64,000 nucleotides of DNA from Streptomyces sp. NBC_00425 (GTDB lineage Bacteria > Actinomycetota > Actinomycetes > Streptomycetales > Streptomycetaceae): the NCBI RefSeq assembly GCF_036030735.1, contig NZ_CP107928.1:5704001-5768000 (forward strand), given 5' to 3'. This document shows, piece after piece, positions 37,119 through 52,566 of the stretch. How positions within the stretch are numbered: position 1 is the stretch's first letter; the number at the start of each line of letters is the position of its first letter. The notes under the pieces are model-generated. The model made no database searches, had not been told where the DNA came from, and saw nothing but the letters and a program-made list of their open reading frames with translations. The position numbers and the translations under genes were made by a program.

Positions 37119-37403
37119 TCAGCCGTTCTTGCGGGCCTTGGCGAGGGACGCCGCATTGCGATGGCCGGCTGCGATGTCCGCGACGCGCTGCGGGGTGACC
37201 TCCAGGTGCGGGGCCAGGTCGTTCCGGTCGTACGGGCCGTCCAGGAGAGCGCGGACGGTCAGCTGCCGCTCCTCGCGCAGCCAGCGCTGCAGGTCGGGTA
37301 CGGCCTTGAGGGCCTTCCCCAGCAGAACGGCCCGGTCGATGGTCGGGTCGCCAGCCAGGTCGGCGAGGGCAGCGAAGGGCTCGGGGAGTTCGGTGCGGTC
37401 CAT
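37119..37403 (-). CDS. Small HTH regulator, paralogue B; candidate repressor of the TAGTG-N6-CACTA regulon
   Basis: A 94-residue protein with an HTH at the C-terminus (RNDLAPHLEVTPQRVADIAA). Its helical core (ALKAVPDLQRWLREERQLTV) aligns with the minus-strand regulator at 27558. Eleven bases upstream of its ATG (37403) lies one copy of the dyad TAGTG-N6-CACTA, the element found in seven downstream cassettes. An autoregulated repressor beside its operator is the simplest reading; it could equally be an activator. Confidence 0.75.
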   Translation of the reverse strand: MDRTELPEPFAALADLAGDPTIDRAVLLGKALKAVPDLQRWLREERQLTVRALLDGPYDRNDLAPHLEVTPQRVADIAAGHRNAASLAKARKNG

Positions 37404-37413
37404 GACGTCAGCT

Positions 37414-37429
37414 TAGTGGGTAGACACTA
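37414..37429 (-). promoter_or_regulatory. TAGTG-N6-CACTA operator at the regulator gene
   Basis: TAGTG (37414-37418), six bases, CACTA (37425-37429), immediately upstream of the minus-strand HTH gene. No GGAAC/GTT element accompanies it on the minus strand. Confidence 0.75.
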
Positions 37430-37463: not shown

Positions 37464-37547
37464 TGACCTGGGCTTTTCTCGAAAAACTTCCGCGCGACCC
37501 GGAACCCTCCCGCCCTCTGTGGCGTTATCCATAGTGAGTAGCCACTA
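37464..37547 (+). promoter_or_regulatory. Promoter/operator cassette C1
   Basis: TGACCTGGG at 37464, then TTTTCTCGAAAAA; GGAAC 37501-37505; 18 bases; GTT 37524-37526; 5 bases; TAGTG-N6-CACTA 37532-37547. The leader ends with GAAGGAG before the ATG at 37574. Confidence 0.8.
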
Positions 37548-37573
37548 CGACGACAGTTCTGAAGGAGCCCCCC

Positions 37574-38293
37574 ATGGACGCCACACAGGCCCTCGCCCTC
37601 CTCGCCACCCGCGCCGACAACCACATCAAGACCGCCCGCGAGGCGCGCGAGCGTCTGACCGTCGCCCTGGCCGCCGAGGGCGGCGCGCACCTCGACTACC
37701 TGATGACCGAGGTCCTCAAGGAGGAGGGCGAGGCCGCCCCGTGGCGCGAGCTGATGCTGCGCATCGACCGTCACGGCGTCCTCGAGGGCCTCGCCAAGCA
37801 GCGCGAAGTGGCCACCGAGCGGGTCATGGGGTACGGGCTCGCCATGAGTACCAGCCTCGTGTCGAACGCGGCCCGCCTCGCGGAACTCGACGGCCTGCGG
37901 CGCTTCGTCAACGCCACCGAGGGCCTGCGGATCGATGAAGGCAAGGCCTCGGTCGAGGAGGCAGCCCCCGCGGCCGAGCCACAGGCGGCCCTGGCGTCCG
38001 CCCTGGCGTCCGCCCCGGCGTCCGCCCCGGCGTCCGCCCCGGTGGGCGTACACAAGGCCACCCCCGCCCAGAAGCGCACGCTCGCCGCCATCCGGGACAG
38101 GGGCGTGGGTCTCACCGAGCTGCGAGTAGGACGGATGCGGGTGACGGTCGCCAACGACGGCGACCGCCCGCGACTGGACATGGTCCTCTGGGTCATCGAG
38201 CAGGGTTGGGCGACGCGGGACCACTCGACCAGCCTCTACAGCGGCCAGGCCGTGACGCTGACCGCGATCGGCGAGGCCGTCCTGGCCGGCTGA
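37574..38293 (+). CDS. Unknown protein with Ala/Ser/Pro linker and winged-helix-like end
   Basis: A 239-residue protein. The N-terminal ~115 residues are helical (ALALLATRADNHIKTAREAR, VMGYGLAMSTSLVSNAARLA). A repeated ASAPASAP linker (residues ~138-157) joins a C-terminal ~75-residue domain (PAQKRTLAAIRDRGVGLTEL ... LTAIGEAVLAG) resembling a winged helix. First gene behind cassette C1. Confidence 0.65.
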   Translation: MDATQALALLATRADNHIKTAREARERLTVALAAEGGAHLDYLMTEVLKEEGEAAPWRELMLRIDRHGVLEGLAKQREVATERVMGYGLAMSTSLVSNAARLAELDGLRRFVNATEGLRIDEGKASVEEAAPAAEPQAALASALASAPASAPASAPVGVHKATPAQKRTLAAIRDRGVGLTELRVGRMRVTVANDGDRPRLDMVLWVIEQGWATRDHSTSLYSGQAVTLTAIGEAVLAG

Positions 38294-38325
38294 CTGGATC
38301 ATCCGGGCGGAGGGCGTACACGCTC

Positions 38326-38409
38326 TGACCTGGGGTTTTCCCGAAAAACTTCCGCGTCACCCGGAACCCCTCCGCCCCCTCCAGCGTTATTCATAGTGAG
38401 TAGCCACTA
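38326..38409 (+). promoter_or_regulatory. Promoter/operator cassette C2
   Basis: TGACCTGGG at 38326; GGAAC 38363-38367; 18 bases; GTT 38386-38388; 5 bases; TAGTG-N6-CACTA 38394-38409; GAAGGAG leader before ATG 38436. Confidence 0.8.
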
Positions 38410-38435
38410 CGACGACAGTCCCGAAGGAGCCCGCC

Positions 38436-38774
38436 ATGACCGCTCAGACCGCCACCGCCATCCCCACCCCCGCCGAAGTTCGCGCCCTCGAAGACGCAGC
38501 CATGAAGATCTACCACCACCACCTCCAGGTCTGGGCCGACTACCGCGCGCTTCCGCAGGAGGAGCAGGAGCGACAGAACCTTCTGTGGCGTCAGCTCAAC
38601 GACCGTCTGAGCGACGAGTACACGAGGGCCTGGGCCCTGTATGCCGCCGCCCAGGCGATCCTCGACAAGGAAGCCGCTCTGAAGCGAAACAAGGCCAGGG
38701 CCGAGGCCGTGCGCTCCAAGACCTGCATGTCCTGCTTCGAAGTCAGGGCAGCCAACGGGACCTGCGGATGCTGA
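38436..38774 (+). CDS. Helical protein with C-terminal Cys motif
   Basis: A 112-residue protein with two long helices (RALEDAAMKIYHHHLQVWAD, EYTRAWALYAAAQAILDKEA) and CMSCFEVRAANGTCGC at the end. Function unknown. Behind cassette C2. Confidence 0.65.
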   Translation: MTAQTATAIPTPAEVRALEDAAMKIYHHHLQVWADYRALPQEEQERQNLLWRQLNDRLSDEYTRAWALYAAAQAILDKEAALKRNKARAEAVRSKTCMSCFEVRAANGTCGC

Positions 38775-38788
38775 GGGCCCCCGCCTGA

Positions 38789-38873
38789 GGGCGCAGCACA
38801 AGCTGCGCCCACCCCCCTAGGGCCCCAGGCCCGACCAGCTCGACCACCCACGGCCCGGCACTCCGCCGGGCCG
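38789..38873 (+). terminator. Two tandem hairpin terminators
   Basis: GGGCGCAGC/GCTGCGCCC (38789-38797, 38802-38810) and CGGCCCGGC/GCCGGGCCG (38851-38859, 38865-38873), both perfect 9-bp stems. Confidence 0.75.
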
Positions 38874-38900
38874 TCCGCACACCCAGAAGGGAACCCCGGC

Positions 38901-41900
38901 ATGGCCGACATCGAGATCACGCATACGCGGGCAGAAGGCACGATCCTCACCGGATCCAGCAAGGGAGACGGCGTCTTCGAACTGGTCAGGCCGCACGGCT
39001 TCTGGTTCTCCCGCAACGTCGAGGGCCTGTACATCAAGCGGTCCCGCGACAAGGAAGCCCAGCACTGGCGGATCAACGCGGCCGCCGACGCGCTGCGCGA
39101 GGCCGGACACACGGTCACCGTCGACATCCGCGAGGAGGAGCGACGCAGCTTCGAAGAGGCCGAGGCCGAGCGCATGGAGCGCGCCGCCGAGCGCGCCGAG
39201 CGCTACGCCGACCGGGCCGGCCGCGCCGCCGCGACCAGCGACGCCCGATGGGAGGCCGCCCACCGGATCTCGGACGGCATCCCCATGGGCCAGCCGATCC
39301 TCGTCGGCCACCACTCGGAGCGGCGCGCCCGCCGCGACGTCGACCGGATGCACGGTCACATGGCGGCCTCGATCGACGCAGGGAAGAAGGCGTCGTACTA
39401 CGCGGATCGGGCGAAGACGGCCGAGCGCTACGAGGCGTTCCGGAACGACCCGCACCGCACCCTGCGACGCCTCGACCGTCTCGGGGCCGACCTCCGGCAG
39501 CAGGAACGCTACGTCGCCCGCGCCCAAGAGGAAGGCTGGGACGCCGAACGTCACGAGCGCCTGGCCGAGGATCTGCGCGAGGAGATCGCCTGCTGGCAGA
39601 AGATCGTCGAGCAGGCCAAGGCCGACGGCGTGAAGATGTGGGGCCCGGAGGACTTCGCGGCCGGCGACTACGTCCTGTACCTCGGCTCCTGGTACCAGGT
39701 GAAGCGAGTCAACGCGAAGACGCTCAGCGTCGCCTGGAACTTGAGGCTGGCCCCGAAGCAGGTCATGACCTTGGAGGACGCCGACTTCAATGGGCGCACG
39801 TCGACCCACTCGGCCGACTACACGCAGGTGCGGGGCCGCTGCCCCGAAGCGGCCATGACCGCCTTCCTCGCCGACGGCAAGGTCCCCGGCGCAAAGACTG
39901 CTCGCGCCGCCTCCGAGGAGCAGCCCGCCAGCGCCGTGCGCGAGGCACTGGCCGCCAAGCCGAAGACCAAGGCCAAGGGCACGGCCAAGCGGAGGGACCC
40001 CAAGGTGCCCGCCCGGGTGCACGTCACCTGCGACCTGGGAGGCACCGAAGCCACCCTGACATGGCAGAACGGGAACAGCCGACCGCACAAGGACCACCCG
40101 CCGGTCACGATCACCCCGCCCGAGGGGGAGAGGTTCCACCGGGCGGTGTGGTCGAAGCTGCTCCAGGAGGAGATCGGCAAGCTCCTCGCCGAACACGGCT
40201 GGACGTACGGGGGCGACGACTGGACGGTGTCCCGCGACCGCAGCGGGTTCGTGCGCGCCATCGAGCCGCTGCCCGCCCAGCCCGAGCGGCCGGCCGAGGA
40301 GCCCGCCGCCGAGGAGGCCGCGCCGGTCGAGGCCGAGGCGCCGGTCGACGAGCCCGCCGCCACGGCGGAAGGGGAGACCGAGGGGGCAGAAAAAACCCCT
40401 CTGACCAGGGAAAACGTGGAAAACACCCGGAACCACGAGGACCCCGCAGGCGTTGTACATAGTGAGTACGCACTACGCGTCGAGACCCCCCAGGAGGACC
40501 CCATGCCGACCGAGACCGAGACGTACGGCCGCCCCCTCACCCGCAAGGAGCGCAAGGCGGTCCACGTCGCCGTGCTGCGCGCCAAGTCCGCGGTGCAGCC
40601 CGAGGTGGAGCGCACGGCCGAGCTGGACGACGCCTACCGGACGTACGTCGACGACGGGATCGCCTCCACCGACGGCTGGTACGCGCCGCTCGACTTCCAG
40701 GCATGGGCCACCACCCTGGGCGGCGTCAAGGTCGAGTACCCCGTCATCGACACCCGCGCGGTCGGCCTGGCCGCCCTGGCGGAGATGGGGGCCACCGTCC
40801 CCGCGATGGAGGAGGAAGCGGCGCCGGTCGCCGAGCAGCCGAAGGTCTGGGGGCCGGGCGACTTCCGCAGGGGCGACTTCGTCCAGGCGCTGGACCGCTG
40901 GTTCGAGGTGAAGCGGGTCAACCCCCGCAGCGTCTCGATCGAGGACGCGCCGTACCTCATCCAGTGGGCGATGATCACCGGCCAGCGCACCGCGGCCGAG
41001 CAGGCCGAGGCGGAGGCCGCCGCTGTCGAGCCGGTCGCCGAGCCGATCGTCGAGGAGACGCCGGAGGAGGCCGCCGCTGTCGAGCCGATCGTCGAGGAGG
41101 CCCCGGAGGAGGCAGAAAAAACCCCTCTGACCAGGGAAAACGTGGAGAACACCCGGAACCACGAGGACCCCGCAGGTGTTGTACATAGTGACTACGCACT
41201 AAGCGCCTCGACCGAGGAGGACGACATGACCGCCACCACCGCCACCGCGAAGGCCACCACCACCAAGAAGGCCGCCAAGAAGGCCACGGAGCCGAAGGCC
41301 CCGGCCGCCGCCGAGGTCAAGACGGTCCAGCGGCGGGTCGCCGTCGACCGCATCGACCGGGACGCCTCCCAGCCGCGCGAAGAGTTCGACCAGGCCAAGC
41401 TGGAGGAGCTGGCCGGCTCCATGCGCAAGCTGGGCCAGCTCCAGCCCGTCAGCCTTCGCTACAACCCTGGCACCAAGCGGTTCACGCTCATCATGGGCGA
41501 GCGGCGCTGGCGCGCGGCGCAGATGGCGGGCCTGACCGAGCTGGACGCCGTTGTCGTCCACGGCGTCCAGGAGGGCGACCGCGAGACCCTCGCCAAGCAG
41601 GTCGCTGAGAACGTCGGCCGCGCGGACATGACCCCCATCGAGGAGGCTAAGTCCTTCAAGCGGCTCCTCGACGCCGAGTACACCCTCGACGAGGTCGCGG
41701 AGATGTGCGGCAAGTCCACCTCCTACATCGGGTGGAGGGTCGACCTCCTGCGCCTGTGCGACGCGGCGCAGGAAGCGCTCGGCAAGGGCCACCTGCCCGT
41801 CGGAATGGCCTGGTACGTCTCGCTGCTGAGCTGCGACAACCAGATGCGGTTCCTGGCCAAGTACGCCCGGGGCGCGTTCCCCAACGACCGCGCCGCCGAG

Positions 41901-42314
41901 GAGTTCGTCAAGGCCTGCCGCGCGGAGGAGAAGCGGCGCTCCGAGCAGGGCTCCTTCTTCGTCCTCGCCGACGAGACGGCACAGGCCGACGGTGGCACCC
42001 AGGAGGAGATCCCGGGGGCGCACGACGTCTCCGAGGAGGAGCGCGAGCGGATCGGCATGGAGCGCTCCACGCTGACGAAGAAGATCGACCGGCTGTCGAC
42101 GGCCGGCGAGATCCTGTCCGAGTTGGCCACCGCGGACCCGGAGGAGCTGGCGCTCCTCCTGGGCGGCACCCCGGGTGGCGTCGCCGGTCACGAGCTGCGC
42201 ATCGAGCACCTGAAGAAGCTGATCGGGAAGGCGTCGAGCAACCTGCGGAAGGCGCAGGCCATCGCCGAGGTCCGCGCCAGCGGCATCGTCATCAACCCCG
42301 AGGCCGCCGCGTAG
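38901..42314 (+). CDS. 1137-codon open frame: DUF3560 protein, middle module and ParB-like protein in one frame
   Basis: Residues ~1-170 match DUF3560 (ITHTRAEGTILTGSSKGDGV, GQPILVGHHSERRARRD). A ~50-residue module occurs twice (KMWGPEDFAAGDYVLYLGSW near 245 and KVWGPGDFRRGDFVQALDRW near 647). From residue ~776 a ParB/Spo0J-type protein follows (VDRIDRDASQPREEFDQAKL, GERRWRAAQMAGL, then an HTH). Promoter cassettes C3 and C4 fall inside, translated as the near-identical peptides at residues 497-524 and 739-766. It may make one fusion protein, or three products from internal starts at 40503 and 41226. DUF3560 and ParB proteins are common on actinobacterial mobile elements. Confidence 0.75.
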   Translation: MADIEITHTRAEGTILTGSSKGDGVFELVRPHGFWFSRNVEGLYIKRSRDKEAQHWRINAAADALREAGHTVTVDIREEERRSFEEAEAERMERAAERAERYADRAGRAAATSDARWEAAHRISDGIPMGQPILVGHHSERRARRDVDRMHGHMAASIDAGKKASYYADRAKTAERYEAFRNDPHRTLRRLDRLGADLRQQERYVARAQEEGWDAERHERLAEDLREEIACWQKIVEQAKADGVKMWGPEDFAAGDYVLYLGSWYQVKRVNAKTLSVAWNLRLAPKQVMTLEDADFNGRTSTHSADYTQVRGRCPEAAMTAFLADGKVPGAKTARAASEEQPASAVREALAAKPKTKAKGTAKRRDPKVPARVHVTCDLGGTEATLTWQNGNSRPHKDHPPVTITPPEGERFHRAVWSKLLQEEIGKLLAEHGWTYGGDDWTVSRDRSGFVRAIEPLPAQPERPAEEPAAEEAAPVEAEAPVDEPAATAEGETEGAEKTPLTRENVENTRNHEDPAGVVHSEYALRVETPQEDPMPTETETYGRPLTRKERKAVHVAVLRAKSAVQPEVERTAELDDAYRTYVDDGIASTDGWYAPLDFQAWATTLGGVKVEYPVIDTRAVGLAALAEMGATVPAMEEEAAPVAEQPKVWGPGDFRRGDFVQALDRWFEVKRVNPRSVSIEDAPYLIQWAMITGQRTAAEQAEAEAAAVEPVAEPIVEETPEEAAAVEPIVEEAPEEAEKTPLTRENVENTRNHEDPAGVVHSDYALSASTEEDDMTATTATAKATTTKKAAKKATEPKAPAAAEVKTVQRRVAVDRIDRDASQPREEFDQAKLEELAGSMRKLGQLQPVSLRYNPGTKRFTLIMGERRWRAAQMAGLTELDAVVVHGVQEGDRETLAKQVAENVGRADMTPIEEAKSFKRLLDAEYTLDEVAEMCGKSTSYIGWRVDLLRLCDAAQEALGKGHLPVGMAWYVSLLSCDNQMRFLAKYARGAFPNDRAAEEFVKACRAEEKRRSEQGSFFVLADETAQADGGTQEEIPGAHDVSEEERERIGMERSTLTKKIDRLSTAGEILSELATADPEELALLLGGTPGGVAGHELRIEHLKKLIGKASSNLRKAQAIAEVRASGIVINPEAAA
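40429..40475 (+). promoter_or_regulatory. Promoter/operator cassette C3, inside an open frame
   Basis: GGAAC 40429-40433; 18 bases; GTT 40452-40454; 5 bases; TAGTG-N6-CACTA 40460-40475; CAGGAGGA before the in-frame ATG 40503. Confidence 0.75.
41155..41201 (+). promoter_or_regulatory. Promoter/operator cassette C4, inside an open frame
   Basis: GGAAC 41155-41159; 18 bases; GTT 41178-41180; 5 bases; TAGTG-N6-CACTA 41186-41201; GAGGAGGA before the in-frame ATG 41226. Nearly identical to C3 over ~89 bases. Confidence 0.75.
41226..42314 (+). other. Possible internal product 2: stand-alone ParB-like protein
   Basis: From ATG 41226 the product would be a 362-residue ParB/RepB-type protein: Ala/Lys N-terminus, ParB N-domain with GERRWRAAQMAGL, an HTH (YTLDEVAEMCGKSTSYIGWR) and a helical C-terminus. 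Its length is normal for the family, so this is likely the functional unit. It may serve partition of a plasmid-like state or regulation. Confidence 0.6.
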
Positions 42315-42327
42315 TGCCTACCCACTA
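42312..42327. promoter_or_regulatory. Solitary TAGTG-N6-CACTA operator at the end of the ParB frame
   Basis: TAGTG (42312-42316) includes the stop codon TAG; CACTA is at 42323-42327. There is no GGAAC/GTT element upstream, so the protein-binding site occurs here without the promoter. Confidence 0.7.
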
Positions 42328-42349
42328 GGGCCGCCCTTCGGAGCGGCCC
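42328..42349 (+). terminator. Hairpin terminator
   Basis: GGGCCGC (42328-42334) pairs with GCGGCCC (42343-42349), directly after the solitary operator. Confidence 0.6.
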
Positions 42350-42419
42350 CCCCCACCCCCCTCGCGGGAGCGCCGCACAGCGCGACGCTCCCGCCCCCTC
42401 AACCCACACGGAGGCCCCC

Positions 42420-43250
42420 ATGCAGTTCACCGCCGAAGCTCTCGCCGTCCTCACCGACCAGCGCACGGAGATCCGCGACGACCGCGTGCGCATCCCCTTC
42501 GACCTCGACCGGCCGGTCTACGAGCAGGTCGACCGCGTCCTGAAGGACATGGGCGGCCGGTGGGACGGTCGCATGCGGGTCCGCGCGCACGTCTTCCCGC
42601 AGCGGATCGAGGAGTTCATGCGCCAGTGCCTCACGGCCGGGGAGTACCCGGGGAAGAACGAGCAGGGCTGGTACGCCACCCCGCCCGCGCTGGTCACGCA
42701 GATCGTCGACCTCGCCGGGATCCGCGCCGGGGACATCGTGCTGGAGCCATCGGCCGGCGCGGGCGCGATGACGTCCGAGATCGCCCGCCGCGGCGGCCTG
42801 GTCGACGCGTACGAGATCGACGAGCGCCGCGCCGACGTCCTGCGGGCGCAGGGCGACTGCCGCAGGGTCTTCGCCGCCGACTTCCTCGCCCAGGACCCGA
42901 TGGAGTACGCGGAGGGCTTCGACAAGGTGGTGATGAACCCGCCGTTCAACAACGGGCTCGACCACATCCTTCACGCGATCCAGTTCATGAAGGACGACGG
43001 CATCCTGGTCTCCGTCATGAGCCAGGGCCTGATGTGGTGGAGCGACAAGAAGTCGACCGCCTTCCGTGAGGTCGTCGAGGAGGTCGGCGGGGAGATCGAG
43101 GCCCTGCCCGACGACTCGTTCGCGGTCTCCGGGACGAGCGTCCGCACCTGCCTCGTCTTCCTCCCCGGCTATGCGGGAGGCCCGCTGCGTACCCACGACT
43201 GGCTGATGCGGCAGCCGAAGCAGCTCGACCTGTTCGACATGGCCGCCTGA
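42420..43250 (+). CDS. Adenine-specific DNA methyltransferase (class I, NPPF)
   Basis: A 276-residue SAM-dependent methyltransferase. Motif I is VLEPSAGAGAMTSEIARRGG, and the catalytic motif IV is VVMNPPFNNG at about residue 172. An N-terminal ~70-residue segment (RIPFDLDRPVYEQVDRVLKD) precedes the catalytic fold. It is likely a solitary phage N6-adenine methyltransferase protecting DNA from host restriction or marking it for regulation; no restriction endonuclease lies beside it. Confidence 0.88.
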   Translation: MQFTAEALAVLTDQRTEIRDDRVRIPFDLDRPVYEQVDRVLKDMGGRWDGRMRVRAHVFPQRIEEFMRQCLTAGEYPGKNEQGWYATPPALVTQIVDLAGIRAGDIVLEPSAGAGAMTSEIARRGGLVDAYEIDERRADVLRAQGDCRRVFAADFLAQDPMEYAEGFDKVVMNPPFNNGLDHILHAIQFMKDDGILVSVMSQGLMWWSDKKSTAFREVVEEVGGEIEALPDDSFAVSGTSVRTCLVFLPGYAGGPLRTHDWLMRQPKQLDLFDMAA

Positions 43251-43267
43251 CCGGGCTCATCCCGCCA

Positions 43268-43326
43268 CCACTTTCCCAAATGATTTTTGGGAAAGTGGAT
43301 TAGGCAAAGTGAGTTGCGGAAAGGAT
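43268..43326 (+). promoter_or_regulatory. GGTTAGG-type promoter/operator 3 with perfect dyad
   Basis: CCACTTTCCCAAA (43268-43280) pairs perfectly with TTTGGGAAAGTGG (43286-43298). The conserved TGGATTAGGCAAAGT (43296-43310) and GAGTTGCGGAAAGGAT follow. It precedes the gene at 43373. Confidence 0.65.
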
Positions 43327-43372
43327 CAAGGTAGAACGACCAACCGCCACAATCACCCAGGAAAGGGACAGC

Positions 43373-43813
43373 ATGACCAGCCCGATCAAACTCGCCACCT
43401 GCACCTACCAGGAGTTCACCCCCGACATGGGCACCCCCGTCCGCACCACGGCCGGCCGCCCCCGCTTCGCCCTCCCGTACCCCATGACCGCGCACGCCCG
43501 ACTCATCACCCCGTCCTGGGACCTCGTCAGGGCCGGCCTCCCCCAAGACGCCTACGAGTTTCAGTACCGGCGGGCCCTCAACGAGACCGGCCTCGAGCAG
43601 ATCCAGGCCGAGCTGCTGCGCATCGCGGGCGCATACGACCTGGACAGCCCCCTCGTCCTCCTCTGCTTCGACAAGCTCAACCAGCTGCCCGCCCGGGACG
43701 CCTGGTGCCACCGCACCCACTTCGGCAAGTGGTACGCGGAGCAGACCGGCGTCGACGTACCCGAGCTCGGCGCACTGCCCAAGCAGGCCCCCGCTCAGGG
43801 CGGCCTCTTCTAA
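43373..43813 (+). CDS. DUF488-like protein
   Basis: A 146-residue protein. LATCTYQEFTPDMGTPVRTT at the start and LVLLCFDKLNQLPARDAWCH near residue 110, followed by HFGKWYAEQTGV, match the DUF488 pattern (Cys-Phe and Cys-His-Arg). The activity of the family is not established. GGAAAGGGA precedes the ATG. Confidence 0.7.
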   Translation: MTSPIKLATCTYQEFTPDMGTPVRTTAGRPRFALPYPMTAHARLITPSWDLVRAGLPQDAYEFQYRRALNETGLEQIQAELLRIAGAYDLDSPLVLLCFDKLNQLPARDAWCHRTHFGKWYAEQTGVDVPELGALPKQAPAQGGLF

Positions 43814-43832
43814 CCACCCCCAGCACGCCAAC

Positions 43833-43862
43833 CCGGCCGGGACCCCACAAGGTCCCGGCCGG
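43833..43862 (+). terminator. Hairpin terminator
   Basis: A perfect 12-bp stem CCGGCCGGGACC/GGTCCCGGCCGG (43833-43844, 43851-43862), nearly identical to the hairpin at 45983-46012. Confidence 0.75.
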
Positions 43863-43886
43863 ACCCACACCCGGACGGAGAACCAC

Positions 43887-44246
43887 ATGCAGCACCTCAC
43901 CTCGACCCGCGTCACCCTCCCCGGCCTCGAAGGGTCCTACGAGGCGTACGTCGCCCCCGGCCGCGACTGCAGCCCGCTGTTCACCCTCGACACCACCCGG
44001 AAGATCGCGGCCGAGACGCAGAAGGTCGCCGCCGCATCGCGGGACCCGCGCAGCGCCGAGACCATCCATGTCCTCGAGGCCGCCCCCGCCGCGGCCGGCC
44101 AGCGGGCCGCGATCGTCGTGCACGTCGACTGGTGCGCCCAGACCGACGGCGACGCCGACGCGGCACGCATCGTCACGCCGAACGGGAACGGCCTGTACCC
44201 GCTCGGGACCGACTGGCAGTGGGCGCCGGTCGCCTGCCGCCAGTAG
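43887..44246 (+). CDS. Unknown protein, paralogue of the N-terminus of the next gene
   Basis: A 119-residue beta-rich protein. TRVTLPGLEGSYEAYV, FTLDTTRKIA and ETIHVLEAAP align with TRVTLDNIVGPYDAIG, FTLDATRQVS and ETIHVIDGRQ of the following gene. ATG 43887 has CGGAG upstream. Function unknown. Confidence 0.65.
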   Translation: MQHLTSTRVTLPGLEGSYEAYVAPGRDCSPLFTLDTTRKIAAETQKVAAASRDPRSAETIHVLEAAPAAAGQRAAIVVHVDWCAQTDGDADAARIVTPNGNGLYPLGTDWQWAPVACRQ

Positions 44247-44254
44247 CCACCCCC

Positions 44255-44279
44255 GGGGCGGGCGCACGACGCCCGCCCC
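44255..44279 (+). terminator. Hairpin terminator
   Basis: GGGGCGGGCG/CGCCCGCCCC, 44255-44264 and 44270-44279, perfect 10-bp stem. Confidence 0.7.
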
Positions 44280-44320
44280 GCCGTCCAGCACCGCTCACAC
44301 AAGGAATGAAGGGCTCCGCC

Positions 44321-45217
44321 ATGATCGCCACCCGCGTCACCCTGGACAACATCGTCGGCCCGTACGACGCCATCGGGACTGGCTGGTCCTACCGCTTCAC
44401 CCTCGACGCCACCCGGCAGGTATCGACCGGGACGCTGGAGATGGCCGACAGCTACGGCTTCACCAGCATGGAGACCATCCACGTCATCGACGGCCGCCAG
44501 GGCAGCCCGGACACGGTCCACATCATCGACAGCGGCGAGACGTACGAGGTCAACGAGGACGGCGACCGCGCCGCCCGCGCCGTCGCCGTCCGCGTCCGCT
44601 GGCGCGGCACGACGCCGAACGCGACGCTCGTCCCGGTCACCCCGCAGGCCCGCCGCGCCGCCCGCAAGACGCAGGGCAAGGCCGGCGGCCGTGGCGCTGC
44701 CCGCGCGGTCGTCGTGTGCGTCCGCTGGCAGTGGGTCGACGAGGAGGGCTCGACCGCGGCCGACATCATCAAGCCGGTCGACGGCCACTACCCCATCGGG
44801 GGCAGGGAATGGCCGTGGTGCGTCGTCACCTGGGCCTGCGCATGCGGATACACCCAGGACTGGGACGAGGGCTGTTCCTGCGGCCTCACCCGCGACGGGC
44901 AGCCAGCAACGCCCCTCGCCGCCGCCAGCCACAAGGCCGGCGAGGAGCTGCGGACCCTGGTCCCCGGCGTGACGTCCGCCCTGGTCGACCTCACTGGCCC
45001 GCCGTACATCTGCGCGGTGTTCGCGGGCGACGTCGAGATCGACACGGCCGACGACACCGGCCCCTTCGACAGCGAGACCCTCGGCGCCGCCGACACGGCG
45101 CTGCGGGCCGCCTACGACGAGCCCGGCGCGGACGAGAAGGCGGCCGGCTGGGAGCTGGTCCCGGACCCGAAGTCACAGCACCTGTACCGGATCACCTTCG
45201 CCCCCGCCCCCCAGTAG
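44321..45217 (+). CDS. Unknown protein with duplicated N-terminal domain
   Basis: A 298-residue protein. The first ~110 residues match the preceding gene. A Cys cluster follows (WACACGYTQDWDEGCSCGL, residues ~170-190), then a C-terminal domain (LVDLTGPPYICAVFAGDVEI). ATG 44321 has AAGGG upstream; ATG 44306 is the alternative. Function unknown. Confidence 0.65.
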   Translation: MIATRVTLDNIVGPYDAIGTGWSYRFTLDATRQVSTGTLEMADSYGFTSMETIHVIDGRQGSPDTVHIIDSGETYEVNEDGDRAARAVAVRVRWRGTTPNATLVPVTPQARRAARKTQGKAGGRGAARAVVVCVRWQWVDEEGSTAADIIKPVDGHYPIGGREWPWCVVTWACACGYTQDWDEGCSCGLTRDGQPATPLAAASHKAGEELRTLVPGVTSALVDLTGPPYICAVFAGDVEIDTADDTGPFDSETLGAADTALRAAYDEPGADEKAAGWELVPDPKSQHLYRITFAPAPQ

Positions 45218-45225
45218 CCCGACCC

Positions 45226-45250
45226 GGGCGGGCGCATCCGGCGCCCGCCC
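45226..45250 (+). terminator. Hairpin terminator
   Basis: GGGCGGGCGC/GCGCCCGCCC, 45226-45235 and 45241-45250, loop ATCCG. Confidence 0.7.
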
Positions 45251-45290
45251 CGACCTCCAGCACCCCACCCACATGGAACGAGGACGTCAC

Positions 45291-45875
45291 ATGACCACTC
45301 AGCCGACTTACCAGGTTGACCAGCTCCCCGAGCACCTCCGCAGCCAGGTCCGGGTGACGGACGCCGGCTGCTGGGAGTGGCAGGGCAAGGTGAACAACAA
45401 GGGGTACGGCTACTACTCGGAGCGCGGCCGGCACACGTATGCGCACCGTAGCTCGTACGAGGCTCTGGTCGGGCCGATCCCTGACGGCCTGGAGATCGAC
45501 CACCTCTGCGTGAACCCGCCATGCATCAACCCGGCCGACCTGGAGCCCGTGACGCACGCCGAGAACCAGCGGCGGATCGCCGAGCGCCAGACGGCATGCA
45601 AGCGGCAGGGGCATGACTGGACCGACCCCGCCAACGTCCGCACCCGGCCGAACGGCTCCCGGTACTGCTACGCGTGCGAACGGGAGGCGCAGCGCCGACG
45701 GCACACCGAGAAGACCGGCGTCCCCTACCGGGGCGCACAGGCCGACCGAACGCACTGCCCACAGGGCCACCCGTACGACGAGGAGAACACCTACAGGACC
45801 AAGCGGGGCGGCCGGATGTGCAAGGAGTGCACGCGACAGCGGAACAGGGAACGGCGTGCACTGAAGCGGCTCTGA
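45291..45875 (+). CDS. HNH endonuclease
   Basis: A 194-residue nuclease. CWEWQGKVNNKGYGYYSERG and AHRSSYEALVGPIPDG precede the catalytic LEIDHLCVNPPCINPADLE, followed by EPVTHAENQRR. The DH pair and final Asn are intact. A second Cys/His half (RYCYACEREAQRRRH and MCKECTRQRNR) forms a zinc region. Such genes are free-standing phage homing-type or packaging-related nucleases. The product also shows what the three proteins at 14.1-15.6 kb have lost. Confidence 0.9.
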   Translation: MTTQPTYQVDQLPEHLRSQVRVTDAGCWEWQGKVNNKGYGYYSERGRHTYAHRSSYEALVGPIPDGLEIDHLCVNPPCINPADLEPVTHAENQRRIAERQTACKRQGHDWTDPANVRTRPNGSRYCYACEREAQRRRHTEKTGVPYRGAQADRTHCPQGHPYDEENTYRTKRGGRMCKECTRQRNRERRALKRL

Positions 45876-45956
45876 CCTGGGGATTCTCTGAAAAACCCCG
45901 GGTGAACCCGGAACCGCCCGCGCCCCTCGCGCGTTGTTCATAGTGACTACCCACTA
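45873..45956 (+). promoter_or_regulatory. Promoter/operator cassette C5
   Basis: The TGA of the HNH gene opens the cassette (TGACCTGGG, 45873). GGAAC 45910-45914; 18 bases; GTT 45933-45935; 5 bases; TAGTG-N6-CACTA 45941-45956. Unlike the others, a hairpin lies between it and the gene. Confidence 0.8.
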
Positions 45957-45982
45957 CGACGACGTCACTCGATCCAGCCCCA

Positions 45983-46012
45983 CCGGCCGGGACCCAACAG
46001 GGTCCCGGCCGG
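45983..46012 (+). terminator. Hairpin in the leader of the cytosine methyltransferase gene (possible attenuator)
   Basis: A perfect 13-bp stem, CCGGCCGGGACCC (45983-45995) with GGGTCCCGGCCGG (46000-46012), lies downstream of cassette C5 and 24 bases before the start codon. Confidence 0.6.
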
Positions 46013-46036
46013 ACCCATCTCCCGAGGAGGCCCTCA

Positions 46037-47902
46037 GTGCCGTACATCGACTCCACTTCCCGTCAGTGGGCCGCCGCCAGCAAGGCGGCCGACGCCCCCC
46101 GCCGGATCCGCGCCTACAAGCACGACAGCGGCGACCTAGCCGTGATGGATTGGTTCGCCGGTTGCGGGGGCTCCGGCCAAGGCGCCGACGCCGTCCCCGG
46201 TCTCCGGGTGGCGTACGCGGCCAACCACTGGAAGCAGGCGATCAAGACTCACGAACTCAACTTCCCGGACGTGGCCCACTACATCGGGGACATCCGCAAG
46301 GCGCCGGTCTGGGCGTGGCCGGTGACCGAAATCTTCTGGGCGAGCCCGGAATGCACTCAGTGGAGCATCGCCCAGGGTAAGAAGCGGTCCTGGGCCAAGG
46401 CGGCACAGGGCGACCTCCTCAACCTCTACGCAGACATGGAAGAGGAGCGGTTCAAGACGGCCGACCAGAAGGACAACGGGCCCACCGAGGAGGAGGAGGC
46501 CAGCCGGGCGCTGATGGAGGAGGTGCCCCTGTACCTGCGCGGCGTGATCGAGCGCGGCGGCCTGGTCAAGGCGGGCGTCGTCGAGAACGTCGTCGATGTC
46601 AGGGCCTGGGGCGAGTGGGATGCCTGGCTGGGCGAGTTCCACAAGCTGGGCTACCGGACGCGGGTGATCGCCCTCAACTCCATGCACGCCGACCCGCGCA
46701 GCGTCCACGCCGCCCCCCAGAGCCGGGACCGGCTGTACGTGGCGTACTGGCACAAGTCGCTGGGCCGTACCCCCGACTGGGACAAGTGGCTTCGCCCCCG
46801 CGCGTACTGCACGGGCTGCGACGAGATGGTGTCGGCGCTCCAGGTCTTCCGGAAGCCCGGCAAGGACATGGGCCGCTATGGGTCGAGCTACGACTACCGC
46901 TGCCCGCGCACCAGCTGCCGGGCCATCGTGCACCCCGACGTCCTGCCCGCCGCGGCGGCCATCGACTGGTCGATCAAGGGCACGCCGATCGGCTCGCGCC
47001 CGGCGACCGACGACTGCCCCGAGGGCCTCGCCCCGGCGACCATGGACCGCATCCGCGCGGGCATCCGGAAGTACTGGCCGCAGCCCGGCGCCCCGGCCGG
47101 CGAGGAGCAGGGAGCGCTGTTCGACGAGGCCGACGGCAGCCAGGTCGCGCCGATGCTCGTGCCCACCGGGGGCACCTGGCGCAAGGGCGCGGCCCCGGTC
47201 GACGCCCCGATGGCCACGCGGACGACGGTCGAGAGCGACGCCCTCGTGGCGCCGCAGGGCTTCCTCGTCCCCTGCGAGGGCCGCGAGGGCAAGCAGCCGA
47301 TGCCCCTCGACGAGCCGCTGCGGACCCAGACGGCGCGGGCCGAGACCGCCGTCGCCTACGTCCCGTTCGTGGTGCCGATGCGGGGCGGGGGCGACAAGGA
47401 GAAGGCCCGGTACATCAGCGAGCCCCTGCACACCGTGTCGGCCGGCGGCAATCACCACGGCCTGGCGATGGCGCCCCGGCCGCTGGTCATGCGGAACAAC
47501 ACCCCGAAGGGCGACCCCGCCCAGATGGTCACGCCGGTCGAGGAGCCGCTGCGGACCATGACGGCCACGAGCGCGCAGTCGCTCCTCGTCCCGTACTACG
47601 GCAACGGCCAGGCCCGGCCCACGGCCGAGCCGGTCGGGGCGCTCCCGACCCGCGACCGGTACGCCCTCCTCGACGCCAACGGGGAGTACGACGTCAGCAA
47701 GATCCTGTTCCGGATGCTCCAGCCGAAGGAGATCAAGAGGGCGATGGCATTCGGAGACCGGTACAAGATCCTGGGCTCGAAGCGGGACCAGGTGAGGCAG
47801 CTGGGCAACGCGGTCACGCCGAATGCGGCCGAGGTGCTGCTGTGCGCCCTCGTCGAGTGCATCACGGGCGAGTCGATCGACCGGTACGCGCTGGCCTCCT
47901 GA
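46037..47902 (+). CDS. DNA (cytosine-5)-methyltransferase
   Basis: A 621-residue C5 methyltransferase. Motif I is MDWFAGCGGSGQGADAV, the catalytic motif IV is WASPECTQWS (Cys near residue 106), motif VI is VVENVVDV, motif VIII is APQSRDRLYVAY, and motif X is VRQLGNAVTPNAAEVLL. The segment from ~residue 255 to 540 is a long target-recognition insert with a Cys4 finger (AYCTGCDEMV ... CPRTSC). No partner endonuclease is seen. It starts at GTG 46037 with GAGGAGG upstream. Confidence 0.93.
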   Translation: MPYIDSTSRQWAAASKAADAPRRIRAYKHDSGDLAVMDWFAGCGGSGQGADAVPGLRVAYAANHWKQAIKTHELNFPDVAHYIGDIRKAPVWAWPVTEIFWASPECTQWSIAQGKKRSWAKAAQGDLLNLYADMEEERFKTADQKDNGPTEEEEASRALMEEVPLYLRGVIERGGLVKAGVVENVVDVRAWGEWDAWLGEFHKLGYRTRVIALNSMHADPRSVHAAPQSRDRLYVAYWHKSLGRTPDWDKWLRPRAYCTGCDEMVSALQVFRKPGKDMGRYGSSYDYRCPRTSCRAIVHPDVLPAAAAIDWSIKGTPIGSRPATDDCPEGLAPATMDRIRAGIRKYWPQPGAPAGEEQGALFDEADGSQVAPMLVPTGGTWRKGAAPVDAPMATRTTVESDALVAPQGFLVPCEGREGKQPMPLDEPLRTQTARAETAVAYVPFVVPMRGGGDKEKARYISEPLHTVSAGGNHHGLAMAPRPLVMRNNTPKGDPAQMVTPVEEPLRTMTATSAQSLLVPYYGNGQARPTAEPVGALPTRDRYALLDANGEYDVSKILFRMLQPKEIKRAMAFGDRYKILGSKRDQVRQLGNAVTPNAAEVLLCALVECITGESIDRYALAS

Positions 47903-47983
47903 CCTGGGCTTTTGTCGAAAAACCTCCGTTCCCACCCGGAACCCCCAGGCTGGTTCCGCGTTAGTCATAGTGAGTACGCACTA
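47900..47983 (+). promoter_or_regulatory. Promoter/operator cassette C6
   Basis: The TGA of the methyltransferase opens the cassette (47900). GGAAC 47938-47942; 17 bases; GTT 47960-47962; 5 bases; TAGTG-N6-CACTA 47968-47983; GAAGGAG leader before ATG 48010. Confidence 0.8.
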
Positions 47984-48009
47984 CGACGGTAACCCTGAAG
48001 GAGCCCCCC

Positions 48010-48222
48010 ATGAAGGTCGTCATCACCCCCCGCGCGATCTACCTGCCCGGCCCGACGTTCATGGAGATCGGCACGATCTCCCTCCCGGCGCCCACGCCGG
48101 TCTCGCCGGCGCCGGTCGAGGAGGTCTGCGAGGACTGCGGCGCGGACCTGGTCCCGCTGATCGGGGACAAGCCGGGCGAGGTGCGGGCGATGTTCTGCGA
48201 GGCGTGCGAGTTCGGCGTCTGA
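48010..48222 (+). CDS. Small zinc-ribbon protein
   Basis: A 70-residue protein with a C-terminal ribbon: VCEDCGADLVPLIGDKPGEV and FCEACEFGV. Monocistronic under cassette C6. Function unknown. Confidence 0.65.
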   Translation: MKVVITPRAIYLPGPTFMEIGTISLPAPTPVSPAPVEEVCEDCGADLVPLIGDKPGEVRAMFCEACEFGV

Positions 48223-48296
48223 GTCTCACGAGAAAACCTCCGATCCAGCCGGAACCCCAAGGGTAGTCAGGCGTTGGACATAGTGACTACCCACTA
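48220..48296 (+). promoter_or_regulatory. Promoter/operator cassette C7
   Basis: The TGA of the preceding gene opens it (48220; TGAGTCTC rather than TGACCTGGG). GGAAC 48251-48255; 17 bases; GTT 48273-48275; 5 bases; TAGTG-N6-CACTA 48281-48296; GAAGGAG leader before ATG 48322. Confidence 0.78.
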
Positions 48297-48321: not shown

Positions 48322-49131
48322 ATGACCACCACCGCCACCACCGCCGAGGTCCGCGAGTTCATCATCGTCGGCCAGTGCCAGGGCACCGGCTACGCCCTCT
48401 GGGACATCGCCCCCGCCCCCGTCGACCCCGCCCGCCGCGCCGCCGTCCTCGAAGAGCTGGGCGTCGACGCGATGGACGCCTTCGGGGACGTCAACACCGA
48501 GTGCGGCGCGACCGCCCGCGAGGCCCTCGACAACTTCCTGGAGGAGATGAGGGAGCAGTCCGGCCTGGACGACTACGACCTCACCGCCGACAGCCGCACG
48601 GACCGTATCGCCGAGGTCGACGCAGTCCGCGCGCACGGAGCCTCGCCCCGAGGCCGAGTGGAGATCACCGCGACCGTCACGCCCGGACCGGACCGTCTCA
48701 CCATCACCGGCACCCACCCGTACGACACGGGCGTCCACGGCCGCATGCACGGCGGCATCACCCGCGCGGGCATCGACTTCCCGGCCGGCGAGGTCGCCGT
48801 CCGCATCGACGACCACCGCGACGTGAGCGGAACCCTCGACCTCGCGGTGGCCTGCGCCATCCTCGGCGCAGCCGGACAGATCGACCGCCACGCCCTCGAC
48901 TCGGTCGTCTGCCTCGGCGAGCTGTGCTGGGACGGCTTCGTGTGCAACGTCTTCAACCTCCGCGCAGTCGTCCAGGCCGCCTACGACGGAGGCCACCGCA
49001 CCGTCCTGGTCCCCGCCGTGCAGGTCATGGACGTCCGGCGCATGGGCTTCGACGGCCTCACCGTCATCGGAGCCCGCCACTTCACCCAGGCCGTCGACGC
49101 GGTCAACAAGCTCGCCCAGCAGGACGACTGA
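48322..49131 (+). CDS. Stand-alone ChlI/Lon-S16-fold domain protein 1
   Basis: A 269-residue protein. The C-terminal ~140 residues match the ribosomal-S5/Lon-S16-like domain at the N-terminus of ComM/ChlI and at the C-terminus of RadA: IDFPAGEVAVRIDDHRDVSG, TLDLAVACAILGAAGQI and VVCLGELCWDGFVCNV. The AAA+ motor normally joined to it is absent. The N-terminal ~100 residues are unique. In RadA and ComM the fold supports branch migration or DNA uptake, so a recombination role is possible. A similar gene follows. Confidence 0.7.
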   Translation: MTTTATTAEVREFIIVGQCQGTGYALWDIAPAPVDPARRAAVLEELGVDAMDAFGDVNTECGATAREALDNFLEEMREQSGLDDYDLTADSRTDRIAEVDAVRAHGASPRGRVEITATVTPGPDRLTITGTHPYDTGVHGRMHGGITRAGIDFPAGEVAVRIDDHRDVSGTLDLAVACAILGAAGQIDRHALDSVVCLGELCWDGFVCNVFNLRAVVQAAYDGGHRTVLVPAVQVMDVRRMGFDGLTVIGARHFTQAVDAVNKLAQQDD

Positions 49132-51210: not shown

Positions 51211-52566
51211 ATGTTCCACGGCTCTATCCCCACCCCCCTCCGCTCGATCATCTACGAGCACGCAGGTACCTGGCCCGGCGACGACGTCTACGTGGGGTGC
51301 TCCGGGAACTTCACGATCGAACGCGTCCTGTACTCCCGCTTCGGGAAGGACCGCCGAGTCCACGGCAATGACATCCAGGGCTACTCGTGCGCCCTCGGCT
51401 GGTGGCTGGCCGACCAGGAGTTGGACTACCGGCTCAAGCCCGAGTACCTGGAACAGGTCCCCTGGCTGGAGCCGTACACCCAGGAGCGCACCGACCTCCT
51501 CGCCACGATCATGCTGGGCACCCGCTTCCTGGGGTACGTCGGCAAGCACGGCGACTACCACCGCCGAGTCATGGTCGCGACGGAGCTCCAGTGGGAGCGG
51601 ATGCACTCCAAGACCGTCGCGAAGCTCCAGGGGCTCGAGACGCGCATCGGGTCGTTCTACGCCGGCGATGTCCGCGACTACCTGCGGGACGCCGTCCCGA
51701 CTGAGGCGCCGGTCGTCATGTTCCCCCCGTTCTACGCCAAGGACTATCAGTCCCAGTTCGCCAGCATCGACGAGGCGTTCGACTGGCCGGTACCGGACTT
51801 CCGAAACCTCGACGAGGACGGCAAGGAAGAGATCATCGCCCAGGTGCAGGACCGGCCCAACTGGATGCTCGGCCTGCACATCGAGCGGGAGGCGCTGCGC
51901 GACCGGCTCGTGGGCGTCGTCCAGACCGCGAACCGCGGCCTGCCGATCTTCGTGTACGCGGGCGGCGGGCCGTCCCGCATCGTGCAGCCCCGGCAGATCC
52001 TCGAACCCCTTCCCATGCGGAAGCTCGGCCCCACGGAGGACTTGGGCGACAAGATCACCGTCCACCCCATCAACATGGCCCAGTTCTGCATGGTGCGGTC
52101 GGAGTTCATGTCCAAGACGATCCTGCCCGGCAGCCCCCTGGAGGCGTGCGCCGTCGCCGTCGACGGCCGGCTGATCGGCGCGTTCGCGTTCAACGAGGAC
52201 AAGTACGACACCCACGGCGCGTACCTCCTCTCGGACTTCCCGGTGTCGTGGACCCGCTACCGGCGGCTGTCCAAGCTGATCGTCATGGTGGCCTGCTCCA
52301 AGGAAGTCCAGCACCTCATGCAGCGCCGCCTCTCCCGGAAGATCAACACGTGGGCGACCACGGCATTCTCCGACCGCCCCAACTCTGCGAAGTACGGGCG
52401 CGGCATCCCCGGCTGCAAGCTCACCAAGCGGCAGGAACCCGGCTCCGACGGCATCCACCGCTACCAGCTCCAGTACGACGGCGTCTTCGGCCGGCACACC
52501 CTCGCCGAGACCCTCGACCTGTGGAAGCGCAAGCACGGCCACGACCTGAAGGACACCACGCCATGA
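51211..52566 (+). CDS. Putative antirestriction adenine methyltransferase
   Basis: A 451-residue protein. GDDVYVGCSGNFTIERVLYS resembles a SAM-binding motif I, and VVMFPPFYAKDYQSQF near residue 170 corresponds to the (N/D/S)PP(F/Y) catalytic motif with Phe first. A GNAT-like segment occurs later (AVAVDGRLIGAFAFNEDK). Proteins of this type next to a ParB-like gene and terminase are known from actinophages as putative antirestriction methyltransferases. It probably protects packaged DNA. Its stop overlaps the ParB-like start. Confidence 0.75.
   Translation: MFHGSIPTPLRSIIYEHAGTWPGDDVYVGCSGNFTIERVLYSRFGKDRRVHGNDIQGYSCALGWWLADQELDYRLKPEYLEQVPWLEPYTQERTDLLATIMLGTRFLGYVGKHGDYHRRVMVATELQWERMHSKTVAKLQGLETRIGSFYAGDVRDYLRDAVPTEAPVVMFPPFYAKDYQSQFASIDEAFDWPVPDFRNLDEDGKEEIIAQVQDRPNWMLGLHIEREALRDRLVGVVQTANRGLPIFVYAGGGPSRIVQPRQILEPLPMRKLGPTEDLGDKITVHPINMAQFCMVRSEFMSKTILPGSPLEACAVAVDGRLIGAFAFNEDKYDTHGAYLLSDFPVSWTRYRRLSKLIVMVACSKEVQHLMQRRLSRKINTWATTAFSDRPNSAKYGRGIPGCKLTKRQEPGSDGIHRYQLQYDGVFGRHTLAETLDLWKRKHGHDLKDTTP

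Follow-up and report, generated by a model that had tools for sequence, protein, structure and literature searches.

Analysis of a 64,000-nucleotide stretch of the Streptomyces sp. NBC_00425 genome (NZ_CP107928.1, positions 5,704,001–5,768,000; hereafter the window) revealed a cassette, repeated in front of prophage genes, in which a promoter-like core is followed at a fixed distance by a 16-bp dyad, and a gene for a small helix-turn-helix protein that carries the same dyad at its own start. Cassette and regulator recur together in related elements, and the ensemble probably constitutes a multi-operator repressor regulon built on promoters of the extracytoplasmic function (ECF) sigma type. We found no description of this cassette in the open-access literature.

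Cassettes in the window

A motif search with GGAAC-N17/18-GTT-N5-TAGTG-N6-CACTA recovered all seven full motifs that the original prediction had reported at gene starts, at 37501–48296 of the window; these were the only full-motif matches in the 9.8-Mb host genome, and a reversed control pattern gave none. The −35/−10 spacing was 18 in five copies and 17 in two, and the dyads start at 37532, 38394, 40460, 41186, 45941, 47968 and 48281. With up to two mismatches allowed, the bare dyad occurred 17 times in the window, nine times perfectly, compared with a mean of 4.6 and a maximum of 10 in 100 shuffles. The earlier list of dyads contained the seven of the cassettes but had overlooked two perfect, promoterless ones, at 37414–37429 and 42312–42327.

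All seven cassettes lie on the forward strand. Cassette 1 (37464–37547) consists of an upstream element starting at 37464, the −35 block GGAAC at 37501, GTT at 37524–37526 and the dyad at 37532–37547, and stands before a hypothetical gene of family F6 (37574–38293, +). Cassette 2 (38326–38409) precedes a gene for 112 amino acids (38436–38774). Cassettes 3 (40402–40475) and 4 (41128–41201) are located inside one uninterrupted frame that joins DUF3560 to ParB (38901–42314, +), the former with an internal ATG at 40503 and the latter preceding the internal ATG at 41226 from which the ParB part starts; this corrects the original prediction. In cassette 5 (45873–45956), the TGA of the upstream element is the stop codon of an HNH gene, and in cassette 6 (47900–47983) it is the stop codon of the cytosine methyltransferase gene (46037–47902) that follows cassette 5. 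Cassette 6 precedes a gene for 70 amino acids (48010–48222), and cassette 7 (48251–48296) a ChlI-domain gene (48322–49131). The original prediction had named the methyltransferase, ParB and ChlI genes as controlled genes; between the end of the copy with its dyad at 45941 and the GTG of the methyltransferase gene there are 80 nt. The upstream part, anticipated in every copy, was present as TGACCTGGG in four of the seven (dyads at 37532, 38394, 45941 and 47968), whereas the copies at 40460 and 41186 carry TGACCAGGG 10 bp, or one helical turn, closer, and the copy at 48281 has no credible TGACCTGC element. A GAAGGAG leader likewise accompanied four copies (37532, 38394, 47968 and 48281) but not the other three.

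Genes for the small and large terminase subunits, portal and head proteins are located downstream of the cassette region, and the window therefore holds a prophage. It also encodes a fusion of a phage DNA adenine methylase-like domain with a GNAT-like domain at 51211–52566 (Pfam PF22555 and PF22559).

Conservation in related elements

Five virus contigs carried the motif, as did seven genomes in a collection of 84,980 species; six of these genomes are titled Streptomyces and the seventh Actinobacteria bacterium OV450. Strain NRRL S-350 and OV450 were merged with two of the virus contigs, as identical site spacing marked them as the same elements, giving 11 cassette-bearing elements, the window and ten others. 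The dyad-only pattern TAGTGNSYRSNCACTA matched in 10 of 14 records; it failed in TSRI0281, where the inner bases differ, and in the related records G403–G405. Among 392 genomes of the genus, a pattern with spacing 18/19 matched only the window's own genome; this pattern is blind to N17 copies and missed genome G078, whose contig and coordinates are those of Streptomyces sp. A1136.

In the stretches read, which cover part of each of these mutually related elements, we counted 92 sites, namely 72 cassettes, with a perfect dyad in 64 and one mismatch in eight, and 20 bare dyads, of which nine lie at regulator starts, seven near the parB stop codon and four elsewhere. When CCGGWAC-N17/18-GTT was searched without requiring a dyad on both strands of the 11 elements (359,122 bases; some pieces overlap, and sites were counted once), 67 of the 68 sites had a dyad with at most two mismatches at +5, and the sole core without one lies inside the methyltransferase gene of element G396. 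Promoter core and dyad are inseparable.

A recognisable start codon followed 62 of the 72 cassettes, mostly (51/62) at 20–33 nt from the dyad, and the products of the genes behind them fell into 15 clusters. For 35 of the 72 cassettes, the nearest neighbour came from the same element (shuffle mean 5.8, maximum 15), and for 15 of the 72 it belonged to the same downstream family (shuffle mean 6.5, maximum 16). This within-element likeness fits duplication, homogenisation or co-adaptation in each phage and does not demonstrate movement.

In eight elements with matched cassettes (the window, G392, G394, G395, G397, G400, G401 and G402), DUF3560 and ParB share one open frame that crosses one or two cassettes; the ParB frames of G403–G405 comprise 397–428 codons. 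This could be a fused gene with a promoter inside it, or the frame may be open by chance.

The proposed small regulator and its operator-like site

The proposed repressor is a 94-amino-acid helix-turn-helix protein of family F8 (37119–37403, −), characterized by its homologues, their alignment and a predicted model. Homologues were present in all 11 cassette-bearing elements, ten of them identified in the gene-family table and that of G392 by direct search, and no match was obtained in the three related whole virus records that have no dyad (G403–G405); the same query matched in 7 of the 392 genomes. Alignment of 12 homologues revealed 21 invariant columns. The structure model is helical, with a mean predicted local distance difference test (pLDDT) value of 85.8, and its helices 60–67 and 71–79 likely form the helix-turn-helix. 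Neither Pfam nor NCBIfam matched the 94-amino-acid protein, although the homologue of G395 passes Pfam HTH_3, and 50,697 phage records contained no relative at an E value of 1e-3. A profile search of solved structures returned a single weak match, a 'CAP repeat' chain, and among 468 re-aligned PDB chains no family stood out, the weak fold matches including sigma region 4.

The perfect dyad at 37414–37429 (−) lies 10 nt ahead of the regulator ATG, on the same strand, and its last bases, TA, open a −10 sequence, TAAGCT, that is separated from the ATG by 6 nt. The pattern TANNNT-N6-ATG is described as marking leaderless genes in S. coelicolor and other bacteria (PMC3160421, PMC4895711). It was found in 20 of 20 regulator homologues, distant ones included, in none of 54 cassette genes and at 3 of the 1203 ATGs of the window. 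The regulator gene is thus predicted to have a leaderless promoter of vegetative type whose −10 overlaps its own dyad. Comparison of the 16 bases ending in the −10 TA with the dyad revealed a recognisable operator in 15 of 16 homologues: perfect in nine (the window, G392–G398 and G402), with one mismatch in G400, L016, L103 and L104, with two symmetric changes in L102 (TATTGGGTACCCAATA) and with three mismatches in L017; G401 retains a degenerate remnant. As in a phage immunity repressor regulon, the regulator has an operator-like site of its own, degenerate in G401, that it shares with the early promoters.

At the regulator start, L103 and L104 have three tandem operators (at most two mismatches) and L017 has two as well as a third that is good in one half, all 23–24 bp apart, and in each of these records a divergent frame begins beyond them. 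Two regulators are tandem-duplicated (200 and 178 amino acids), as would be expected of a covalent dimer. The elements with the TAGTGTCCACCCACTA form of the operator (G394, G397 and G398) have QRVHDIA in the recognition region of the regulator, where most others have QRVADIA or QRVSDIA; this pairing is probably one event by descent. The four most distant homologues (L105–L107 and L018) keep TANNNT-N6-ATG and have another palindrome-like stretch further upstream (GTAAGGGGACCCCTTAC in L107); they widen the family to further small proteins, perhaps autoregulated, whose operators differ.

Regulator or ParB as the binder of the dyad

This linkage makes it very likely that the regulator binds the dyad. 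Alternatively, the ParB-like protein could bind it, the dyads being a dispersed parS-like partition site of a phage-plasmid and any effect on promoters being secondary or exerted by ParB. In favour of this reading, the gene for a ParB with an HTH_ParB domain lies between two dyads, and there is a dyad at or just past the parB stop codon in 8 of the 11 elements; in the window, the TAG of the promoterless dyad (42312–42327, no strand assigned) is the parB stop codon itself, with a GC-rich inverted repeat behind it. Two further results speak for ParB: across the 11 elements, divergence of the operator inner bases tracks that of ParB (r 0.54, p 0.002) at least as closely as that of the regulator (r 0.44, p 0.005; the two duplicated regulators entered with their first domain only), and a partial correlation test favours ParB. 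Operator, regulator and ParB all co-vary, with a correlation of r 0.60 between regulator and ParB divergence, and the distance-correlation test does not separate the two proteins.

Position and distribution of the sites argue in the opposite direction. In 16 homologues, one of them with a degenerate copy, the start of the regulator gene is linked to a dyad-like site, and the dyad is fixed at +5 of the promoter. The whole 55.5-kb record of L017, perhaps a fragment, has tandem operators and no match to ParB, whereas the positive control, L016, has one. The genomes of L103 and L104 contain ParB relatives of only 28–38% identity; one of them, on the contig of L104 (genome G314, contig C17), is a weak 28% match in a 642-codon frame about 26 kb from the regulator with its three operators. 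The three records with a ParB 60–63% identical, G403–G405, have no dyad. Because we weighed physical linkage above correlation, we prefer the regulator as the binder and regard binding by ParB as improbable.

As a separate observation, the promoterless dyad behind parB is extended to a longer palindrome at L077:10655, L073:11373 and near 10605 in L076, reading GGACCT-TAGTGTCTAGACACTA-AGGTCC in L077. These palindromes could perhaps be terminator and operator in one.

Promoter core and sigma factor

Among the 72 cassettes, the −35 block is GGAAC in 42, GGTAC in 25, GAAAC in two and GGAAT, GGCAC and GGTGC in one each. GG.AC is thus nearly invariant, and a C stands before GTT in 90%, GTT itself being required by the cassette search. 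The spacing is 18 in 31 and 17 in 11 of the GGAAC copies; of the GGTAC copies, 24 have 17 and one has 18. The ECF assignment made in the original prediction agrees with the C. glutamicum ECF consensus GGAAC-N17-18-cGTT (PMC10012870), and S. coelicolor sigE promoters have been modelled with spacers of 16 or 17 bp (PMC6767563); GGTAC in 25 of the 72 copies weakens it. With moderate confidence, we favour a host ECF-type sigma factor as the reader of the core, which could be SigR-like or another.

A core that is not of ECF type is a tentative alternative, compatible with the rest of the repressor model, in which a phage factor or HrdB would use GGWAC...GCGTT or the frequent CATAGTG. It would accommodate the preference of GGTAC for spacing 17 (24 of 25), whereas GGAAC is at 18 in 31 of 42, as well as the bases before TAGTG (C in 72% and A in 85%). 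However, the near-invariant GG.AC, the C before GTT and the variable 17/18 spacer resemble two-block ECF promoters, and no cassette of the 72 contained a vegetative pair, TGACM/TANNNT or TTGAC/TANNNT. A vegetative promoter using the upstream CTGACC, which equals the S. coelicolor −35 NTGACC (PMC4895711), was also considered and rejected, as TGACM-N16-19-TANNNT occurred in 0 of 72. A phage-encoded sigma factor is disfavoured on searches for sigma domains that did not include the window prophage: of eight virus records, among them five with cassettes, none had a Sigma70_r2 match, and Sigma70_r4_2 gave weak matches in six, the single one above the cut-off being in G403, a record without this cassette.

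The upstream element and exchange of the core

The upstream element TGACCTGC was perfect in 52 of the 72 cassettes. The distance from its start to the first base of the −35 block was 27–29 bp in 18 cassettes, 36–40 bp in 49 and 46 bp in one; no start fell at 30–35 or 41–45 bp, and four cassettes had no credible copy. Such steps of about 10 bp, or one helical turn, point to a site at which a protein contacts a single face of the double helix. Many of the short-spaced copies occupy corresponding places (in the DUF3560-ParB frame and before family F14), so that the independent events are perhaps only three.

Records G403–G405 (L082, L085 and L087) keep several early gene families and the TGACCTGC element, but their repeated cores differ, two records having a GAATCGGCTTGTTAAAACTGGCTAGGGCAAGCCGATTC-like core and one a core like TTGCCC-TATGAGGTTA-GGGCAA; they also have a common GGAAGGAT-like/GAAGTAG block about 70 bp downstream. 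A divergent F16 gene was examined as the regulator of these class-2/3 cassettes, which led nowhere. In L016, the regulator, dyads, ParB and methyltransferases are present and the GGWAC-GTT core is absent, and L102 contains the regulator, an altered dyad and two early genes.

These comparisons bear on three further points of the original prediction. A promoter with an overlapping operator and a small helix-turn-helix regulator is supported by the dyad at 67 of 68 cores and the regulator in 11 of 11 elements. Of the suggested spreading of the cassette, what stands is that it precedes at least 15 gene clusters and that its copies are most like those of the same element; movement was not seen. Absence of the motif from related phages with conserved genes had been named as evidence to the contrary, and three records present this picture; in these, the regulator is equally undetectable and a different cassette occupies its place.

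Discussion

In the mechanism we propose, the 94-amino-acid phage repressor would bind the dyad TAGTG-N6-CACTA as a dimer, and the cassettes would be early-gene promoters whose core, GGAAC or GGTAC followed by N17/18 and mostly CGTT, is read by a host sigma factor, with help from a factor, or from RNA polymerase itself, acting at the TGACCTGC/T-rich element. In C. glutamicum numbering, the last base of GGAAC is −31 (PMC10012870), which puts the dyad at about −4 to +12 and makes exclusion of RNA polymerase the simplest mechanism. Given binding by the regulator, repression of the cassettes is quite likely: the bound repressor would shut the polymerase out of every copy at once and, by blocking the −10 of its own gene, keep its own level low. 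Once it is lost or overcome, ParB, the methyltransferase and other early genes would start together. Of this model, the comparison shows the anatomy of the cassettes, its conservation and the link between regulator and operator, whereas binding, repression, activation and the identity of the sigma factor are inferred.

The regulator might instead be an activator or anti-silencer acting at the dyad, as its PHROG label, 'late transcriptional activator', would have it; one homologue also resembles sigma factors below threshold, scoring 24 bits for TIGR02937, whose cut-off is 43. We consider this unlikely. Activators do not usually act at −4 to +12; at the regulator's own gene the dyad spans promoter positions of about −26 to −11, and tandem operators beside a divergent frame start resemble repressor switches. 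That the dyad acts at the RNA level, as a 5′-terminal hairpin, is very improbable: the dyad would sit at the very start of the mRNA, and TAGTG and CACTA are able to pair, but one-sided changes (CAATA, CTCTA) occur without compensation, and at the regulator gene the same dyad precedes the start of the predicted leaderless mRNA.

The proposed regulon resembles, in its working, the multi-operator repressor systems known from phages and the arrangement of repeated early promoters in phiC31. Our computation showed that phiC31, a temperate Streptomyces phage, has a promoter-like repeat in 8–9 copies through its early region and, as a second repeat, several copies of the palindrome CCTACTCACGTGAGTAGG, which we take to be its early promoters and the conserved inverted repeats (CIR) with the c repressor. 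However, phiC31 yielded no match to the cassette core with dyad, to the dyad alone or to TGACCTGC; the distance between its two kinds of repeat is not fixed, and one of its genes is annotated as a sigma factor. The start-associated sequences (SAS) and extended SAS (ESAS) of cluster K mycobacteriophages are similar in being repeated before many genes, in their inverted repeats and in a consensus that differs between subclusters (PMC3203893). ESAS, however, are pairs of imperfect repeats of 17 bp that go with the translation start and whose role is unknown (PMC3203893), whereas the cassettes join one 16-bp dyad to a promoter core and have a likely regulator; they lack the combination of a SAS at the start codon with paired 17-bp repeats. 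In cluster A mycobacteriophages, one repressor serves 20–30 operators or stoperators, site motifs and repressors diverge together, and some sites lie away from promoters (PMC6550527). Their sites are 13–14 bp long, without dyad symmetry, bound by a monomer and mostly off promoters (PMC6550527), unlike the present dyads, 72 of 92 of which are at promoters.

The core itself resembles promoters of the sigE/sigH/SigR group, GGAAC-N17-18-cGTT and GGAAT-N18-19-GTT (PMC10012870, PMC9205884), from which the cassettes differ in phage use, the CCCGG flank, the GGTAC variant, the fixed operator and the upstream element. A host ECF sigma factor also matters to the prophage SPbeta, which is lost from SigY deletion mutants (PMC8270828); the accessible part of that study reports prophage maintenance and not ECF promoters at phage early genes. 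Among the systems compared, none joins an ECF-type core, a dyad at a fixed distance at the start site and a phased upstream element. New here are the helically phased TGACCTGC element and the relatives that keep it with another core and no detectable regulator.

A more speculative extension, which we regard as doubtful at present, is that a family of large actinobacterial prophages, in which no sigma factor was detected, put their early genes on a host ECF stress sigma factor. The cassette would then be an AND gate, open when the ECF sigma factor is active, the upstream factor present and the repressor gone, and would couple lytic genes to thiol or envelope stress, with core, operator and repressor being exchanged among relatives and the upstream element kept. 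If this is true, heteroimmunity could arise via genome-wide core swapping.

The cassettes and the 94-amino-acid protein offer a testable regulator–operator pair for a prophage-like group of which we found no description in the open-access literature. They suggest that phage early genes can run on a host stress sigma factor without a sigma gene of their own, and natural variants such as altered operator inner bases, tandem-duplicated regulators and exchanged cores give access to the evolution of multi-operator phage regulation.

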